Source: an uncultured Pelagibacteraceae bacterium (lineage in GTDB: Bacteria > Pseudomonadota > Alphaproteobacteria > Pelagibacterales > Pelagibacteraceae). Taken from it: a DNA stretch of 55,782 nucleotides. Positions 1 to 6,696 of this stretch are shown here, piece after piece. Under the pieces are notes generated by a model. That model was not told the origin of the DNA and ran no database searches. It saw nothing but the letters and a program-made list of their open reading frames with translations. The translations under genes were made by a program, and so were the position numbers. The number at the start of each line of letters is the position of its first letter. The first letter of the stretch is position 1. The stretch is taken from assembly GCA_902566945.1 (NCBI GenBank), contig CACFKZ010000006.1, forward strand, positions 1-55,782, given 5' to 3'.

Positions 1-2361
1 TCTGTCCATTTTAGACATAGTTAGAGCATGATGTGTTATAATTATAAATTTTGTATTAGTGATCTTTGTCAAGTCATCAAGTAGTCCACAAAATCTTGTT
101 ACATTTGCATCGTCTAAAGGTGCATCTACTTCGTCAAGAACACATATTGGAGATGGGTTTACTAGAAAAACTGCAAAAATTAGTGATAAAGCAGTTAATG
201 CCTGTTCACCACCAGAAAGTAATGTAATTGACTGAAGTCTTTTTCCAGGAGGGGAGACAAACATCTCTAAACCAGCTTCCAGTGGATCATCCGAGTCGAC
301 TAGCTCAATTTTTGCTGTACCACCATTAAAGAGTTTTGTATAAACTTCATTAAATTTTCTATTCACCTTTGTGTAGGCATCTAATAATCTTTCTCTACCT
401 TTTTGATTCAATTCTTCAATGCTAGTTTTTAACTTAACTATAGCTGAATAGAGATCAGCTCTATCGTCCTCCATCTTTTTTATTTCAGTTTCATATTTTT
501 TAGTTTCCTCGTCTGCTCTAAGATTTACAGATCCGAGAGATTCTCTTTCTTTTTTTGTATTTTCAATTTTTTTAGTTTGTTCGTCAATTGATGGAAAATT
601 TTGCTCATCTAATGAGCTTAAGTCTGATTGTGGTAATATAGAGGATTCACTATCTATATTTAGCTCATTTTTAAGAGAATATAAAAAATCTTTCTTTCTG
701 TTTTCAATACCCTCAATAGTTGCTTCATTTCTTGCTTTGTTTTCTTTAAGCCCAGTAAGCTTTAATTGAATTTCTCTTAAGTTTTCATTAATTGATCTAT
801 ATTTTTTTTCAGCTTCAATCAATTCATTTTCAATTTCCTCGTTTCTTTTTTTAATGTTTTCAAGATTTTGTAAATTTTGTCCTTTTGATGTAGCTATCCT
901 TTCAGGGTTTTTCCGATTTTCGCTGATTTCTAATTGAACTTTATTTTTTCTATCATTCAATTCATATATCATTTTTTCCGAATTAGTTTTCAAATTTCGC
1001 CAATTCTCTAATTCAACATCGATATTTTTTATTCTTTCTTTTCTTTTAATAGAATCGCTTTCTATAGATTTATTTTTTCCGTATTTTTCTGCATATTCCT
1101 CTTGAGAAAGAGTAATTTTTTTGACCAATTTTTTAAGTTCTTTAAAGTTTTCTTTTGATAGCTTTTTATCTTGTTCAATATCTTTCTCAATTTCGTTTAA
1201 CATTGCATCTAATTGACTCAGCAACTTATCGAGCTCAGCTTTTGATAACTGAAGCTCATTTGAGGAACTTGTTTCTAAATTTAATAATTTATTTTCTGTA
1301 TTTAAAAGGTCTTCTTTTTCTTTCAAAATTCTTTTTTCATTAAGATCTGCATCTAATGAGATACTTTTTTCTCTTTCCAGATCAGAGTCTACCGTTTTAA
1401 TTGATTTCTCAAGTTTTTCTTGAAGAGATTTTACTCTCATTTCTTCCTCTGCGAGGTTTGAAATATCTAAATTTAATTTTTGAAGTGAAGCTGCGCTCTC
1501 TATTTTTTTATCTCTTAAAGGAGCAAGTTTTTTATTTTCCTCCTCTAGCAAGGTATTATTATGATTATAGTCAATATTTGTTGCACTAATCTCATCGTCT
1601 AGCTCGCTTAATTTCTCTTGAATTTGTTTTTTATCTTTTTCTACTTCTCTTATTTTAAGAAAATATAACCCAGCTTCAATTTTTTTAATTTCATTTGAAA
1701 TTTCCTTATATTTAGTGGCTTCCTCGGCTTGTTTTTTGAGATTATCAAGTTGCTTTTGCTGTTGTTTCTTTAGTTCATCAGCTCTCTTTAAATTGTTTTC
1801 AGCTGCATTTAATCTTGTTTCTGCTTCTTGTCTTCTAGCATGAATTCCTGATATTCCTGCAGCTTCCTCAAGAACAGTTTTCCTTTCAATTGGTTTTGCA
1901 GTAACTAATTGACCAATTCTGCCTTGACTTATCAATGATGGAGAATGTGCTCCTGTAGAGAGGTCAGCAAAAAAAGTTTGAACGTCTCTTGCTCTCACTT
2001 CTTTATCATTAATATAATATTTTGAACCTTTGTCTTTTTCAATTTTTCTTTTGATTGAAATTTCATCAAATTCTTTAAATTGAATAGGACCGTTTTTTTC
2101 TCTATTATCTAATAACAAAGCTACTTCAGAAATATTTTTTGAAGGACGATTAGAAGTTCCTGAAAATATTACATCTTCCATTCCTGAACCTCTCATACTT
2201 TTTGCAGAGTTTTCACCCATACACCATCTTAGGGCTTCTACAATATTAGATTTTCCGCATCCATTTGGCCCAACTATTCCAGTAAGTCCTTTTTCAATTA
2301 ATATATTTGTTTTTTCAGAAAAAGATTTGAACCCTGTCATTTCTAAGTTTTTAAATTTCAT
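1..2361 (-). CDS. smc: Chromosome segregation ATPase SMC, truncated by the window edge
   Basis: SMC is the ATPase of the condensin complex that compacts and segregates the chromosome. I translated 787 codons; the frame is still open at base 1, and the last residues read are in the conserved THHALTMSKMDR segment, so only a short C-terminus is missing. The N-terminal head has Walker A GPNGCGKS (residues 31-38) and the typical SMRGSGMEDVIFSGT segment. The C-terminal head has the signature LLSGGEQ (about 714-720), Walker B ICVLDEVDA (739-747) and the D-loop PLDD. Residues about 170-625 are almost continuous Lys/Glu/Leu/Asn-rich coiled coil with very few glycines, and I see no globular hinge. The protein would be only slightly over 800 residues, against roughly 1150 for usual alphaproteobacterial SMC. 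The start codon at 2361 directly abuts the stop of the upstream thioredoxin-fold gene, so the two are probably co-transcribed. Confidence 0.95.
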   Translation of the reverse strand, partial: MKFKNLEMTGFKSFSEKTNILIEKGLTGIVGPNGCGKSNIVEALRWCMGENSAKSMRGSGMEDVIFSGTSNRPSKNISEVALLLDNREKNGPIQFKEFDEISIKRKIEKDKGSKYYINDKEVRARDVQTFFADLSTGAHSPSLISQGRIGQLVTAKPIERKTVLEEAAGISGIHARRQEAETRLNAAENNLKRADELKKQQQKQLDNLKKQAEEATKYKEISNEIKKIEAGLYFLKIREVEKDKKQIQEKLSELDDEISATNIDYNHNNTLLEEENKKLAPLRDKKIESAASLQKLNLDISNLAEEEMRVKSLQEKLEKSIKTVDSDLEREKSISLDADLNEKRILKEKEDLLNTENKLLNLETSSSNELQLSKAELDKLLSQLDAMLNEIEKDIEQDKKLSKENFKELKKLVKKITLSQEEYAEKYGKNKSIESDSIKRKERIKNIDVELENWRNLKTNSEKMIYELNDRKNKVQLEISENRKNPERIATSKGQNLQNLENIKKRNEEIENELIEAEKKYRSINENLREIQLKLTGLKENKARNEATIEGIENRKKDFLYSLKNELNIDSESSILPQSDLSSLDEQNFPSIDEQTKKIENTKKERESLGSVNLRADEETKKYETEIKKMEDDRADLYSAIVKLKTSIEELNQKGRERLLDAYTKVNRKFNEVYTKLFNGGTAKIELVDSDDPLEAGLEMFVSPPGKRLQSITLLSGGEQALTALSLIFAVFLVNPSPICVLDEVDAPLDDANVTRFCGLLDDLTKITNTKFIIITHHALTMSKMDR

Positions 2362-2955
2362 TTATAAATTTTTCTCTATAGCTTTTTTAAATTGTTTGTA
2401 ATCAATTTTTCCATCATATTTTTTTTCATTAATAAGTATAGTGGGAGTCGAGTCTATTTTATATTTTTTTTGAGCTTCAATCCTTTGATTTAAAACATTA
2501 TCTTGCGCTTCCTCACTTTTTAAACACTCATCCATTTTTACATCATCCAAATTTAGCTCTAAGCCAATTTTTTTAATAGATTCATTTATCTTATTTATAT
2601 CAGATCCAACCGCCCATATTTTTTGTTTTTCATACATTTTTCCTAAAAGTTTTATTTTTGTAATATTATTAACATGACATCTCACTATAATTTCTGCATT
2701 TAAAGCTGCTAAATCCAAAGGAAAAGCATGGTGTTCAAATCTAACCTTACCTTTATTAATAAAATCTTTTTCAAGCTTATAAAAAATTTTTGTATGAAAA
2801 TTTGCACAATGAGGACATGTCAAAGATGAAAACACTTTTACAGTTACTTTCGCATCTGATTGACCAACGCTTAATATGCTCCCTTCAGCTTGAGAGGTAA
2901 TTAAAATAAAAAATAAAAATACGAACTTATAAATGATATTACTTATTTCTTTCAT
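2362..2955 (-). CDS. DsbA-family thiol:disulfide oxidoreductase
   Basis: A periplasmic thioredoxin-fold protein that would form or shuffle disulfide bonds in exported proteins. Residues 1-24 form a hydrophobic signal sequence. The redox motif CPHC is at residues 47-50, and the cis-proline loop STPTI lies near residue 168, followed by a short C-terminal helix. At 197 residues it has the usual length for the small DsbA/thioredoxin_4 group of alphaproteobacteria. Its start overlaps the 3' end of the DciA-like gene by 17 bases, and its stop abuts the SMC start, so dciA, this gene and smc look like one transcription unit. It could equally be a DsbC/DsbG-like isomerase; the lack of an N-terminal dimerisation domain favours the DsbA group. 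Confidence 0.85.
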   Translation of the reverse strand: MKEISNIIYKFVFLFFILITSQAEGSILSVGQSDAKVTVKVFSSLTCPHCANFHTKIFYKLEKDFINKGKVRFEHHAFPLDLAALNAEIIVRCHVNNITKIKLLGKMYEKQKIWAVGSDINKINESIKKIGLELNLDDVKMDECLKSEEAQDNVLNQRIEAQKKYKIDSTPTILINEKKYDGKIDYKQFKKAIEKNL

Positions 2956-3421
2956 TGTATGCTTTCAAAAATTTATTAAGCGAATTTTTTAATTGACTGT
3001 TATCTACCTTTTGAATTTTTTTTGTTATTTCATCTATATCTTTTATTTTTGGAAATAATTTTTTTTCTTCAATCTTTTCTTGAATAATCTTTAATGTAAT
3101 ATTTGAAATACAATTATATCCGAAAAAACTATTAATTTTATCGGTTATTGTTTTTTTTTCATACTCAATTTCCACCTCTTTTCCATGCACCACATTTAAC
3201 ACTAACGTACCATCTTTCATTTCTTTCCCCATTTTTATCGTGACAGGATAGCAAGCATCAGAAATTTTCTTATGAACAATTCTAGTCCAGTTATCAACTA
3301 TGTGTGAATAATTATATCCCCCTTTTTTTAAATGTTTCCTCAAGGTTTTAGGAATCGAACTTGAAAAGGGACGAAGTCCTTGTATGAATGTTTGGGATTT
3401 ATTATTATTTTTACTATGCAT
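2939..3421 (-). CDS. dciA: DciA-like protein (DUF721)
   Basis: DciA-type DUF721 proteins interact with the replicative helicase and help load it in bacteria that lack DnaC/DnaI. The 160-residue protein carries the DUF721 core: a basic N-terminus ending around KHLKKGGYNYSHI, then NWTRIVHKKISDACYP, a strand-rich GTLVLNVVHGKEVEIEYEK segment, and a helical FFGYNCISNITLKI segment. The C-terminal third is a charged, probably disordered extension. The ATG lies in the palindromic hexamer ATGCAT (3416-3421) that also holds the ATG of the divergent mutY. No clear Shine-Dalgarno sequence precedes it, so the transcript may be leaderless or start inside mutY. The helicase-loading role is inferred from family membership. 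Confidence 0.8.
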   Translation of the reverse strand: MHSKNNNKSQTFIQGLRPFSSSIPKTLRKHLKKGGYNYSHIVDNWTRIVHKKISDACYPVTIKMGKEMKDGTLVLNVVHGKEVEIEYEKKTITDKINSFFGYNCISNITLKIIQEKIEEKKLFPKIKDIDEITKKIQKVDNSQLKNSLNKFLKAYNERNK

Positions 3422-4417
3422 TTAATTCCAACTTTATCAAAAAAAATTTTAGCTTGGTATGATAATAGCAAGCGTAAATTGCCATGGCGTGTTGGCAAAA
3501 AGTCACCTAAAAAGCTCTATTATCGACTTTTAAGTGAATTTATGTTGCAACAAACTCAAGTAAAAACTGTAATTCCTTATTTTAATAATTTTACAAAAAA
3601 ATTTAAAACGCTTCGCTCTTTATCAAAAAGCAATGAGAAGGAAATTTTAAAAATGTGGGAAGGCCTAGGTTATTATAGAAGAGCAAGAAATTTATTAGCT
3701 TGTTCAAAGGAACTAGTAAATAAATATAATTCACAGCTTCCAAATAAACTTGAGGAATTAAAAAAACTTCCAGGTATTGGAGATTACACAAGCAATGCAT
3801 TATTAGGACTAGTACATAACAAACCTACTTTAGCATTAGATGGTAATGTAAAAAGGGTGTTTTCAAGAATTTTAAATATAGAAGAAAAAAAAATAAATTT
3901 TGATAAATTAATTTATAAAAATAAAGAAAACCTTTTTAATACAAATCGAAACGCCGATTTTGTTGAAGCCTTAATGGAATTTGGTGCAATGAAATGCAAA
4001 CCAAAAGACCCAAATTGTCTTACATGCTGTTTGAATAATTCTTGTAAGTATTTTAAATCTAATAAAAAAGTAAAAAATCTGAGAAAAAAGATGGTTAAAA
4101 ATAAAGATTATGATATTTTTTGTTACATAAATAAAAAAAAACAAATTGCTTTAGCTAAAAATAATCAAATTAGTTTTTTAAAAAATTTTAATATGCCAAA
4201 AATTAAAGAGTCAAATGACTCAATTAGAATTCAAGATTGGAAATTTCTCAAAAGCTATAAAAACTCTATTTCAAATTTAAGATTAAATATCAAAATATAT
4301 TACAAATTTTCTAATAAAATTCCTTCATCATACAGCTGGTATTCTTTAGAAAAAAATAAAGAATTTATTCCAAATTTTACAAAAAAAATATTTAGACAAG
4401 TTTCAACTTTGTTTTAA
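3416..4417 (+). CDS. mutY: A/G-specific adenine DNA glycosylase MutY
   Basis: MutY removes adenine mispaired with 8-oxoguanine as part of the GO repair system. With the start at 3416, the catalytic Glu is E41 in SEFMLQQTQ, the helix-hairpin-helix reads LPGIGDYTSNAL, and the catalytic Asp is D142 in LALDGNVKR. The 4Fe-4S cluster ligands are C194, C201, C204 and C210 with the standard spacing (C-x6-C-x2-C-x5-C). A degenerate C-terminal NUDIX-like domain follows. The frame extends upstream to an ATG at 3380, but the family N-terminus and the shared ATGCAT hexamer favour 3416. The stop TAA overlaps the ATG of the next gene by one base (TAATG), implying translational coupling. Confidence 0.93.
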   Translation: MHLIPTLSKKILAWYDNSKRKLPWRVGKKSPKKLYYRLLSEFMLQQTQVKTVIPYFNNFTKKFKTLRSLSKSNEKEILKMWEGLGYYRRARNLLACSKELVNKYNSQLPNKLEELKKLPGIGDYTSNALLGLVHNKPTLALDGNVKRVFSRILNIEEKKINFDKLIYKNKENLFNTNRNADFVEALMEFGAMKCKPKDPNCLTCCLNNSCKYFKSNKKVKNLRKKMVKNKDYDIFCYINKKKQIALAKNNQISFLKNFNMPKIKESNDSIRIQDWKFLKSYKNSISNLRLNIKIYYKFSNKIPSSYSWYSLEKNKEFIPNFTKKIFRQVSTLF

Positions 4418-5550
4418 TGAAAAAAAAATTAGCTATCATAGGTGCAGGTATAGCGGGTTTAACTCTAGCAAATTTTATTAAAAAATATTCAGATCATGAA
4501 TTTATGGTTTATGAGAGAGAAGAAAGTTTATCTCTTGAGGAAGGTTACGGTATTCAATTAGGAGCTAATGGAGTTAAAATTTTAAATCAAATAAATTTTA
4601 ACAAAATAAATAATGAAAAAATATTTCATCCAAAAATAATTGATTTTTATAATATCCAAAACGAAAAAATATGCGATTTAAATTTATCCAATTTCAACAG
4701 TGCTGAAGCAAAATATACAACCCTTCAAAGATCAACTTTAATTGAATTTTTAAAAGAGGATATTTACACACAACACTTAAGATTTGGAAAAAAAATTAAA
4801 GAAGTTTCTGAACTTAAAGATAAAGTTTTAATAAAATTTGATGACAATACAAATGATCTTGTAGATTTTGTTATTGCTGCTGACGGAATATTTTCTAATA
4901 CTAGATCTTTTTTTGAAAAGAAAAAAATAGAGCCAAAGTTTAAGAAAGCTGTAGCAGTAAGGGTAATATTAAATTCAAGATCTGATTTTAATATTATTGA
5001 GGATAATATTAGTCTCATGCTAGGCAGTAACAGTCATATGGTTATTTATCCGATTAATAAAAAAAAAGAGTTAAATATGGTTTGCATAATCAGATGTAAA
5101 AAATATGAACCAGATAATGTTAAACAGCTAGTTCAAGAAATTATTTTAAAACAAAACTCTAAATTAAAGAACTTTTTTGACAATGAAATAAAAACATGGC
5201 CATTATATTTTTCTCCTAAAATTATTCCTTCTACTAACAAAAAAGTATTTTATATAGGAGACGCTTTTAATGGATTTTTACCAACCCTTGCGCAAGGTGC
5301 AGGACAATCTATTGAAAGCGCCTTTGAAATATTTAATTTATTAAAAAATGATAAGCTTGATAAAGATAACGATTATTTTGAGGTTAGATCAAAAAGGGCA
5401 AAAATTATAAGAAGTAGATCAAACTTTAATTTCTTTACATTCCATTTTTCAAACTCAATCATGCAAAAAGTAAGAAATATATTTCTTAAGTTTTTAGTAA
5501 AGCGCAAATTTTTTGTAAAAAGATATTTAGGTAAAGTTTATTATAATTAG
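4417..5550 (+). CDS. FAD-dependent monooxygenase of the UbiH/salicylate-hydroxylase type
   Basis: A 377-residue flavoprotein aromatic hydroxylase. The N-terminal Rossmann motif GAGIAG (residues 9-14) binds the FAD adenosine. The second FAD motif, GDAFNGFLPTLAQGAGQ, lies near residue 280, and the Ala-Ala-Asp-Gly segment AADGIFSNTR corresponds to the conserved DG region. There is no C-terminal membrane anchor. The substrate cannot be read from sequence: family members hydroxylate ubiquinone precursors (UbiH/UbiF/UbiL type) or small aromatics such as salicylate. The gene is coupled to mutY by a one-base overlap. It converges on ccrM, and the two stop codons share TTAG at 5547-5550. Confidence 0.8.
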   Translation: MKKKLAIIGAGIAGLTLANFIKKYSDHEFMVYEREESLSLEEGYGIQLGANGVKILNQINFNKINNEKIFHPKIIDFYNIQNEKICDLNLSNFNSAEAKYTTLQRSTLIEFLKEDIYTQHLRFGKKIKEVSELKDKVLIKFDDNTNDLVDFVIAADGIFSNTRSFFEKKKIEPKFKKAVAVRVILNSRSDFNIIEDNISLMLGSNSHMVIYPINKKKELNMVCIIRCKKYEPDNVKQLVQEIILKQNSKLKNFFDNEIKTWPLYFSPKIIPSTNKKVFYIGDAFNGFLPTLAQGAGQSIESAFEIFNLLKNDKLDKDNDYFEVRSKRAKIIRSRSNFNFFTFHFSNSIMQKVRNIFLKFLVKRKFFVKRYLGKVYYN

Positions 5551-6620
5551 GCTTTATTTTCGGAAATAAATTTTTGTCTTAAGCTATCTATCAAAACAGT
5601 AGATCCATTTATATTGCAATGCCAATAAGTCCAACCATTATAGCTTTCAGCACCCATAATTGTTGCTGCCACTTTATGAATAGAACCTTCAGACTCTTTA
5701 CATTTAATACTTCCATCAGCCATGATTTTAGCATTAATCTTCATTTTTGGATCAAAGAGGGTAGTGCCAGGTTTTAATATTCCTAATTCAACAAGAGAGC
5801 CAAAAGGAATTCTTGGTTTTGATTTATTGTTTTCTATAGTATCTAAATATTCATCCTCAATTACCCTAGCTTTTTTTATTCGTTCACTAGCAGCTTTAAA
5901 ATATTTTTTATCTCTTTCTATTCCAAAATATTTTCTACCTAATTTTTTAGCAACCACCGCTGTTGTTCCAGTGCCTAAAAAAGGATCAAAGATGGCATCA
6001 CCTTTGTTTGTGGTAGCTAAAATAATTCTATGTAAAAGAGCCTCTGGTTTTTGAGTAGAATGAATTTTTTTCCCATTTTTCTTAAGTCTCTCTTTTCCGT
6101 TACAAATAGGTAATGTCCAGTCCGATCTCATCTGCAAGTCATCATTTAAGCATTTTAGCGATTGATAATTAAAAGTATATTTTGATTTTTTATTTTTTGA
6201 AGCCCAGATTAGAGTTTCATGTGCATTAGTGAATCGCGTACCTCTAAAATTTGGCATTGGATTATTCTTTCTCCAGATGACATCATTTAGCAACCAGAAA
6301 TCTAAATTTTGTAAGTGATAACCTAGACGAAAAATATTATGATAAGATCCTATTACCCAAATACTGCCATTATTTTTTAAAATTCTTTTACATTCATTAA
6401 GCCAAGCAATGCAGAACTCATCGTAATGTTTGAAACTATTAAATTGATCCCACTTATCATTCACACCATTCACTTTGCTTGCATCAGGCCGAGTTAATTT
6501 TTCACCAATCTGCATATTGTATGGAGGGTCAACAAAAACTAAATCAAAGGATTTATCAGGAATCTTTTTTATTTCCTTTAAGCAATCTCCATTAACGATT
6601 TGATTAGAAAATTTTAACAT
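5547..6620 (-). CDS. ccrM: CcrM-type adenine DNA methyltransferase (GANTC)
   Basis: Transfers a methyl group from SAM to adenine in GANTC, the cell-cycle mark of alphaproteobacteria. The catalytic motif DPPYN is at residues 31-35. The SAM-binding motif DPFLGTGTT lies near residues 210-218, followed by the GIERD segment. This order (catalytic motif before SAM motif) is that of beta-class N6-adenine methylases such as M.HinfI. About 90 C-terminal residues (from about 265, including the GWTYWHCN stretch) form the extra domain that separates CcrM from restriction-linked relatives. No restriction endonuclease gene is adjacent, so it looks like an orphan regulatory methylase. I chose the ATG at 6620; a TTG at 6632 would add four residues but lies inside an inverted repeat. 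GANTC specificity is inferred from the family. Confidence 0.9.
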   Translation of the reverse strand: MLKFSNQIVNGDCLKEIKKIPDKSFDLVFVDPPYNMQIGEKLTRPDASKVNGVNDKWDQFNSFKHYDEFCIAWLNECKRILKNNGSIWVIGSYHNIFRLGYHLQNLDFWLLNDVIWRKNNPMPNFRGTRFTNAHETLIWASKNKKSKYTFNYQSLKCLNDDLQMRSDWTLPICNGKERLKKNGKKIHSTQKPEALLHRIILATTNKGDAIFDPFLGTGTTAVVAKKLGRKYFGIERDKKYFKAASERIKKARVIEDEYLDTIENNKSKPRIPFGSLVELGILKPGTTLFDPKMKINAKIMADGSIKCKESEGSIHKVAATIMGAESYNGWTYWHCNINGSTVLIDSLRQKFISENKA

Positions 6621-6624
6621 TTTT

Positions 6625-6696
6625 AGATTCAACTCTAAATTGAATCTGTGGTCAAACTATTTTAAAAAAAAATGAGACTTCTTGTGTTTGAGATTC
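6625..6696 (-). promoter_or_regulatory. ccrM upstream region: GANTC-bearing inverted repeat plus a third GANTC
   Basis: The 76-base gap between rnhB and the ccrM ATG holds a perfect inverted repeat: AGATTCAA at 6625-6632 and TTGAATCT at 6640-6647, 7-base spacer. Each arm contains one GANTC site (6626-6630 and 6642-6646). A third lies at 6692-6696. A TTGACC match to a -35 box occurs on the minus strand at 6648-6653, adjoining the repeat. Methylation-sensitive autoregulation of ccrM through leader GANTC sites is known in Caulobacter; that the same happens here is inference. Confidence 0.6.

Follow-up and report, generated by a model that had tools for sequence, protein, structure and literature searches.

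The hinge is the central domain of SMC proteins and normally joins two copies of the protein. Can a chromosomal SMC have lost its hinge and, if so, what would hold the complex together? The question is raised by the first gene in a 55,782-nucleotide stretch of DNA from an uncultured Pelagibacteraceae bacterium, hereafter the window; it is the whole of contig C6, and the host genome is an 864 kb draft that is 77% complete. For this smc gene a first-pass annotation had described intact ATPase heads with no visible hinge between them. The frame, 2361..1 on the minus strand in the list of open reading frames, encodes 787 aa and is open at the window edge. A length of exactly 814 aa is found in 56 of 80 fetched relatives, so that the window SMC lacks about 27 residues at the contig edge. 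The relatives come from single-cell and metagenome-assembled Pelagibacteraceae genomes and from the isolate Candidatus Pelagibacter ubique HIMB058, and on this basis we assign the window to SAR11 and its order to the Pelagibacterales. The features of the locus are as follows.

1..2361, minus strand: smc, hinge-less SMC ATPase, C terminus cut by the contig end (open reading frame, TIGR02168, SMC_N)
2248..2271, minus strand: Walker A, residues 31-38 (pattern in 78 of 78 family sequences)
1174..1851, minus strand: N-terminal coiled-coil arm, residues 171-396 (AlphaFold2 of the 814-aa L017, whose numbering is common with the window)
1327..1386, minus strand: arm segment, residues 326-345, still aligning with canonical SMC
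1102..1281, minus strand: variable tip region, residues 361-420, in place of the hinge and hinge-proximal arms (entropy, profile alignment)
1156..1173, minus strand: predicted hairpin-closing turn, residues 397-402 (AlphaFold2)
997..1059, minus strand: arm segment, residues 435-455 (in the window, ESDSIKRKERIKNIDVELENW), facing 326-345 in the hairpin
331..1155, minus strand: C-terminal coiled-coil arm and joint region, residues 403-677 (AlphaFold2)
202..222, minus strand: ABC signature, residues about 714-720 (translation, motif pattern)
103..147, minus strand: Walker B and D-loop, residues about 739-753 (translation, motif pattern)
28..33, minus strand: H-loop His-His, residues 777-778
2362..2955, minus strand: DsbA-like gene directly upstream of smc (named by eye)
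2939..3421, minus strand: DUF721-like gene (named by eye)
3380..4417, plus strand: mutY-like gene (named by eye)
5547..6632, minus strand: CcrM-like DNA methyltransferase gene (named by eye)

Complete frames of more than 780 aa with the same build were present in 77 of the 80 relatives, and these, together with the window SMC, are the 78 family sequences referred to below (L048 and L051 start a few residues inside). The three left aside are L031, which has an in-frame stop, L061, at 761 aa, and L074, which is cut by its contig. In L031, from a single-cell genome, the stop is a single TAG at SMC residue 392, near the predicted hairpin turn, and may reflect either an error of amplification or a gene split in two. 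In L061, from an assembled genome, 53 residues are lost in frame after residue ~152, at the head-arm border, taking the protein from 814 to 761 aa. One internal TAG also occurs in the SMC match at G021:C2:149622-150920.

The head is complete. Walker A (residues 31-38), the signature (about 714-720) and Walker B with the D-loop (about 739-753) all stand where the first-pass annotation had placed them in the window SMC. Across the family, the Walker A, Q-loop and signature patterns occur in all 78 sequences, the Walker B and D-loop pattern in 77 and the H-loop pattern in 74, the misses being single substitutions; the arginine-finger pattern fits 69 of the 78. The patterns travel less well to two other sets, f2, where the Q-loop pattern fits none of 30 sequences, and f25, where those for the signature, Walker B with D-loop, and H-loop fit none of five. 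These misses arise because other letters stand at those positions, not because the motifs have gone.

The protein also scores as an SMC. Against TIGR02168, the equivalog of bacterial SMC, the window SMC reaches 643 bits, above the cut-off of 567, and it falls below the cut-offs of the Rad50, RecN and archaeal SMC-related family profiles (for RecN, 40.8 bits against 407.85). Pfam MukB gave a weak match in three of 44 relatives, with a best E of 0.076, among 25 of 37 families listed. The four upstream neighbors, named by eye from their sequences, recur in G026, G041 and G045, three further genomes of the order, and are kept in three of the four hinged alphaproteobacteria examined (G359, G440 and G376); in the fourth, G245, only the DsbA-like gene is evident upstream of smc. 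On the other side of smc, an F0 ATP synthase a-subunit-like gene, again identified by eye, lies downstream in both Pelagibacterales families and in f25 (L191-L194). By profile score, gene order and the head tree described below, the window gene is the ordinary orthologous chromosomal SMC of the Pelagibacterales. Because its central hinge is missing, we file it as a variant rather than as a canonical member of Smc-ScpAB.

The absence of the hinge was apparent at several levels. The Pfam hinge profile, SMC_hinge (PF06470), had no match in the window SMC at E<=1, and SMC_N was present with 155 bits. PF06470 is weak on alphaproteobacteria, as a Caulobacter control was matched at E<=0.1 and missed at 0.001. 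We therefore built a custom hinge HMM from 19 hinges, drawn from 20 hinged SMC genes belonging to alphaproteobacterial families other than the window's. This profile, at E<=0.01, matched 181 of 289 genomes of the class, a set that includes the profile's own 19, the window's genome and two of its family, and in which only 194 genomes gave an SMC match, no SMC being found in the remainder. With filters off and at E<=10 it matched 40 of 40 hinged proteins (19 of them its own rows) and none of six hinge-less proteins, the window SMC included. Within the window's order, none of 197 genomes matched the custom profile at E<=0.1, and none matched PF06470 at 0.001. The hinge-less state is thus common to the order. 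The idea of a hinge merely hidden from Pfam is rejected, since the alphaproteobacterial profile still finds none. The first-pass annotation had named a hinge-model match as the finding that would tell against it, and neither PF06470 nor the custom HMM produced one.

Alignment and composition agree with the profile searches. Against a profile of 20 full hinged SMCs, the window SMC aligns at positions 1-416 and 744-1123; canonical positions 417-743 are absent, and the hinge sits at about 504-652 of them. Residues 331-450 of the window SMC contain 0.8% Gly and 0% Pro, as against 6.5%-9.4% Gly and 5.3%-7.1% Pro in six canonical hinge regions. The further claim that no zinc hook of the Rad50 type is present also held: CxxC occurs in none of the 78 sequences between residues 251 and 600, and a zinc hook in place of the hinge is rejected on that ground. 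Could the hinge instead be supplied in trans, by another gene? The two profile searches of the 197 genomes speak against such a gene, none was noticed by eye in three scpAB neighborhoods, and nothing was found in its favor; we regard this idea as extremely improbable and reject it. These comparisons of sequence confirm the window SMC as a protein with a complete ATPase head and without a hinge.

Because smc lies at a contig end in a draft genome, the short gene might be suspected of being an assembly or deletion artefact. The 77 relatives with complete frames of the same build, however, come from other records, and genomes assembled as single contigs also carry a short SMC (for example G041, with 809 aa, and G042, with 802 aa). 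More broadly, TIGR02168 finds smc in 180 of the 197 genomes of the order and in 139 of the 149 that are at least 90% complete, with up to three candidates scored per genome; no SMC match at 1e-30 was obtained in 17 of the 197, a group that includes ten genomes at least 90% complete. Among the matches listed, uncut SMC frames of the order span ~798-891 aa, and those of the rest of the class are mostly ~1150-1200 aa. The short length noted at the outset is therefore borne out order-wide (~798-891 aa against mostly ~1150 or more in the class, among the matches listed), and the comparison that the first-pass annotation had proposed, between SAR11 and other alphaproteobacteria, finds the whole order short. 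A short, hinge-less SMC throughout an order is not an assembly error; with the same architecture recurring across it, we reject the artefact, to which we attach next to no probability.

What then closes the far end of the arms? We modeled two relatives with AlphaFold2, using alignments of 44 and 30 of the 78 family sequences. In the model of L017, from the 44-sequence alignment, helices 215-396 and 403-567 are joined by a six-residue turn. Ten-residue blocks across 301-480 have pLDDT values of 76-92, the two blocks that hold the turn being at 76 and 79. The head of this model is poor, with a pTM of 0.38, so only the local helix-turn-helix is trusted. The first-pass annotation had the arms meeting near residues 365-430; the model places the turn at 397-402. 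The accompanying estimate of ~225 residues for each coil half does not hold, as the second arm reaches ~677 and half the inter-head distance is 253.5 aa. Fold searches recovered the heads and arms of SMC and Rad50 proteins and, with the longer variant, a mixture of SMC arms and unrelated long helices; these results are uninformative for the tip.

Conservation is lowest at the predicted tip. Across residues 361-420 the entropy averages 1.76-1.96 bits per 20-residue block, and blocks 361-380 and 381-400 are the highest of the whole protein; block 581-600, in the joint, reaches 1.84 bits, whereas values of 0.1-0.5 prevail in the head. Full proteins range from 798 aa (L088) to 859 aa (L080), varying mostly at the tip. 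Segments ~50-70 residues below it, on both arms, are conserved and align with canonical SMC. In one alignment comparison, L083 and L088 were dropped from 15 chosen sequences, as they were missed by the motif search.

One reading of this hairpin is that it acts as a helical mini-hinge, two tips packing as a small bundle to give a permanent dimer in which the ring stays closed. The model of the longer relative L080 (859 aa) is consistent with this, since it has two added tip helices, 397-419 and 423-445, although its blocks are at pLDDT 56-79 and its pTM is 0.30. RecN of D. radiodurans dimerizes via its coiled coil, according to the account in PMC5128194. Further encouragement comes from the f2 sequences (L097-L126 except L121), in which the middle stretch STLKEVEGYDDTSNW, residues ~416-430, has a mean entropy of 0.58 bits against 1.02 and 1.10 in its flanks; this value is drawn from 29 sequences with an Neff of 7, and the stretch is taken as the tip by position only. 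The arms of f2 align further than those of the window SMC, to ~487 and from ~781, and the hinge positions are missing again. In this conserved middle f2 differs from the window's family, whose tip is variable. Conservation is what one would expect of an interface that keeps a dimer permanently closed, so the high entropy and varying length of the tip in the window's family speak against a fixed mini-hinge there, and we consider it unlikely. The longer tips of other families may leave room for one there.

The arms themselves are shorter than those of hinged relatives. Half the inter-head distance, 253.5 aa in the window SMC, ranges from 245.5 to 276 aa in the 78 family sequences, from 277 to 277.5 aa in 29 f2 sequences and from 247 to 254 aa in the five of f25. 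Measured between the same head end points in 18 of 20 hinged relatives, the arm has a median of 362 aa, a difference of about 108 aa per arm. Natural arm lengths have modes at 238, 341 and 515 aa, in steps of ~100 aa (Burmann et al., 2017, PMC5344682), and the difference of ~108 aa is close to one step between the modes given there. As its methods section describes arms measured from head to hinge, hinge-less proteins would probably have been left out of that survey. An SMC of 880 aa in genome G377 (L226, family f142) has arms of ~220 aa on average and a hinge at 373-516 (E 5e-31); it is the one protein whose arms are quoted from the filters-off hinge run, in which a spurious first domain in some rows makes single-arm values unreliable. 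L226 is a natural counterpart that shares short arms with the SAR11 SMC and keeps its hinge; short arms and hinge loss are therefore separable.

We used trees of the heads, rooted at the midpoint, to place the hinge loss. In these the order forms one clade among hinged alphaproteobacterial SMCs, with support of 99/100 and 100/99, for which a single loss within the order is the simplest reading. Taken simply, then, the sequences suggest that the hinge was lost in an ancestor of the Pelagibacterales. The second tree and the second AU test comprised ten Pelagibacterales, three of the five f25 sequences and 15 of 20 and 19 of 20 hinged sequences, with the truncated L213 excluded.

A second hinge-less group complicates this history. 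Family f25, of another alphaproteobacterial order that might, at a guess, be HIMB59/AEGEAN-169, comprises six genomes, five of which have an SMC (L130, L131, L132, L157 and L158), of 803-817 aa after trimming. Its signature, LSGGEKT, and its H-loop, THNPITM, are unlike those of the Pelagibacterales. L130 had no match to the custom hinge profile with filters off at E<=10, and G240, G371 and G468 were not among the profile's matches in the class search at E<=0.01. Despite one weak PF06470 match in G468, with an E of 0.053 and its location within the genome not shown, the SMCs of f25 look hinge-less too. The head trees set f25, which has a long branch, apart from the Pelagibacterales. A split with the hinged rows on one side appeared in 12% and 0% of 200 bootstrap trees. 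A single clade of Pelagibacterales and f25 is compatible with the AU tests (p 0.4 and 0.298), and the class may have seen one hinge loss or two.

The partners of SMC are present in the order. ScpA was found in 28 of 41 relatives, including 11 of the 14 that are at least 90% complete, and in 16 of 18 chosen genomes, namely all 13 near-complete ones of the order (two of which are already in the count of 41) and three of five from f25. ScpB, whose gene adjoins scpA, was found in 46 of 61 relatives and in 13 of the 16 at least 90% complete. The three scpAB neighborhoods inspected by eye held no added gene of note. ParB is present in 53 of the 61, the window's own genome included. The first-pass annotation had suggested looking for scpA and scpB; both occur across the order, and neither was found in the window's own genome, which is 77% complete. 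The near-complete genomes that lack ScpA are the same ones that lack ScpB (G006, G030 and G032), which fits a missing contig without proving it. With ScpA, ScpB and ParB present in the order, the textbook cycle may survive in large part.

The model that we favor, with rather better than even confidence, is a working Smc-ScpAB condensin in which the kleisin, the ATP-driven engagement of the heads and perhaps also contacts between arms or tips join the subunits, and not a hinge. We infer its mechanism, dimer formation and translocation included, by analogy, the ParB, ScpA and head steps being carried over from known Smc-ScpAB. The Pelagibacterales ancestor would have lost the hinge together with ~108 residues of each arm, and a poorly conserved helical hairpin would now close the arms. 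The SAR11 Smc most likely still functions as a Smc-ScpAB condensin. ParB would deliver Smc to parS, and ScpA would link the two Smc subunits, binding one at its neck and the other at its cap; with ATP the two heads would engage and clamp DNA, and hydrolysis would drive translocation. Without a hinge, the far end would not be permanently closed. If anything keeps the arms together, it would be lateral contacts between them or the tip hairpin, and such contacts would probably be weak or transient. The complex would then be an openable, kleisin-closed tweezer, not a three-interface ring. The earlier suggestion that dimerization and DNA loading must differ from those of textbook condensin is plausible.

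There are precedents for hinge-independent pairing. The Smc of B. subtilis is cited as dimerizing when its hinge is absent or mutated, probably aided by arm contacts (PMC5526789, citing Minnen, 2016), and subcomplexes of hinge-less, hydrolysis-dead Smc5 and Smc6 associate in ATP, via their ATP-bound heads, as reported in PMC8327961. Together with the coiled-coil pairing of RecN, these lead us to favor the tweezer with kleisin and head engagement. Such short arms, at 253.5 aa for half the inter-head distance against a canonical 362, might instead point to a protein that no longer translocates as a condensin and, in cells whose chromosome is very small, clamps or bridges DNA through its link to the kleisin. 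That seems improbable to us, more so than the mini-hinge, because the ATPase motifs, ScpA, ScpB and ParB are all kept. Shortened arms are moreover compatible in themselves with function: PMC5344682 describes a Mini-Smc of B. subtilis that gave colonies with arms of only 253-267 aa, albeit with its hinge present, and places a mode of natural prokaryotic arms at 238 aa, again in proteins with a hinge.

SAR11 is among the most abundant cell groups in the ocean, and the hinge is viewed as one of the three interfaces of the SMC ring, through which DNA might also pass. An entire order that lacks it, some members of which are cultivable, provides a natural experiment on the purpose of the hinge. It would help to separate closed-ring models, with topological entrapment and hinge gating, from models based on head engagement and kleisin. 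We suggest, tentatively and at somewhat less than even confidence, that the SAR11 condensin works fully without a hinge and that hinges were lost more than once, in the Pelagibacterales, f25 and marine Actinomycetes, which are marine or reduced-genome lineages. If this is true, hinge closure is no universal requirement for SMC loading and translocation.

How does the SAR11 protein compare with known systems? With canonical Smc-ScpAB it shares the heads, joint, head-proximal arms and gene neighbors, and ScpA, ScpB and ParB are present in the order; it differs in that canonical Smc has a hinge and hinge-proximal arms, and the window SMC is without positions 417-743. RecN is SMC-like and, in the description of PMC5128194, pairs through its coiled coil; the window SMC lies far under the RecN cut-off. 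Rad50/SbcC and the archaeal ASRP (coalescin, Sph) have arms without an SMC hinge, as does the SAR11 SMC. They carry a zinc hook, according to PMC9389158, whereas the SAR11 family has no CxxC in the residues searched and the window SMC scores below their cut-offs. Among titles and the openings of abstracts, subscription papers being mostly outside this scope, the literature yielded no hinge-less SMC in SAR11. The closest parallel is in uncultured marine Actinomycetes, whose hinge-less SMCs consist of head and arms with no CxxC (Sussfeld et al., 2025, PMC12153180); the main text of that article reports no hinged SMC found in tandem, discusses hinge loss in an unknown lineage and does not contain the words SAR11 or Pelagibacter. 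On that account, the two proteins share a head, coiled-coil arms and the lack of both hinge and CxxC. They differ in position: the hinge-less clade of Actinomycetes is placed near the base of actinobacterial sequences (PMC12153180), whereas SAR11 heads group with alphaproteobacteria in our trees of alphaproteobacterial sequences. A hinge-less SMC has thus been known from marine Actinomycetes since that 2025 report, and the SAR11 protein is an additional variant.
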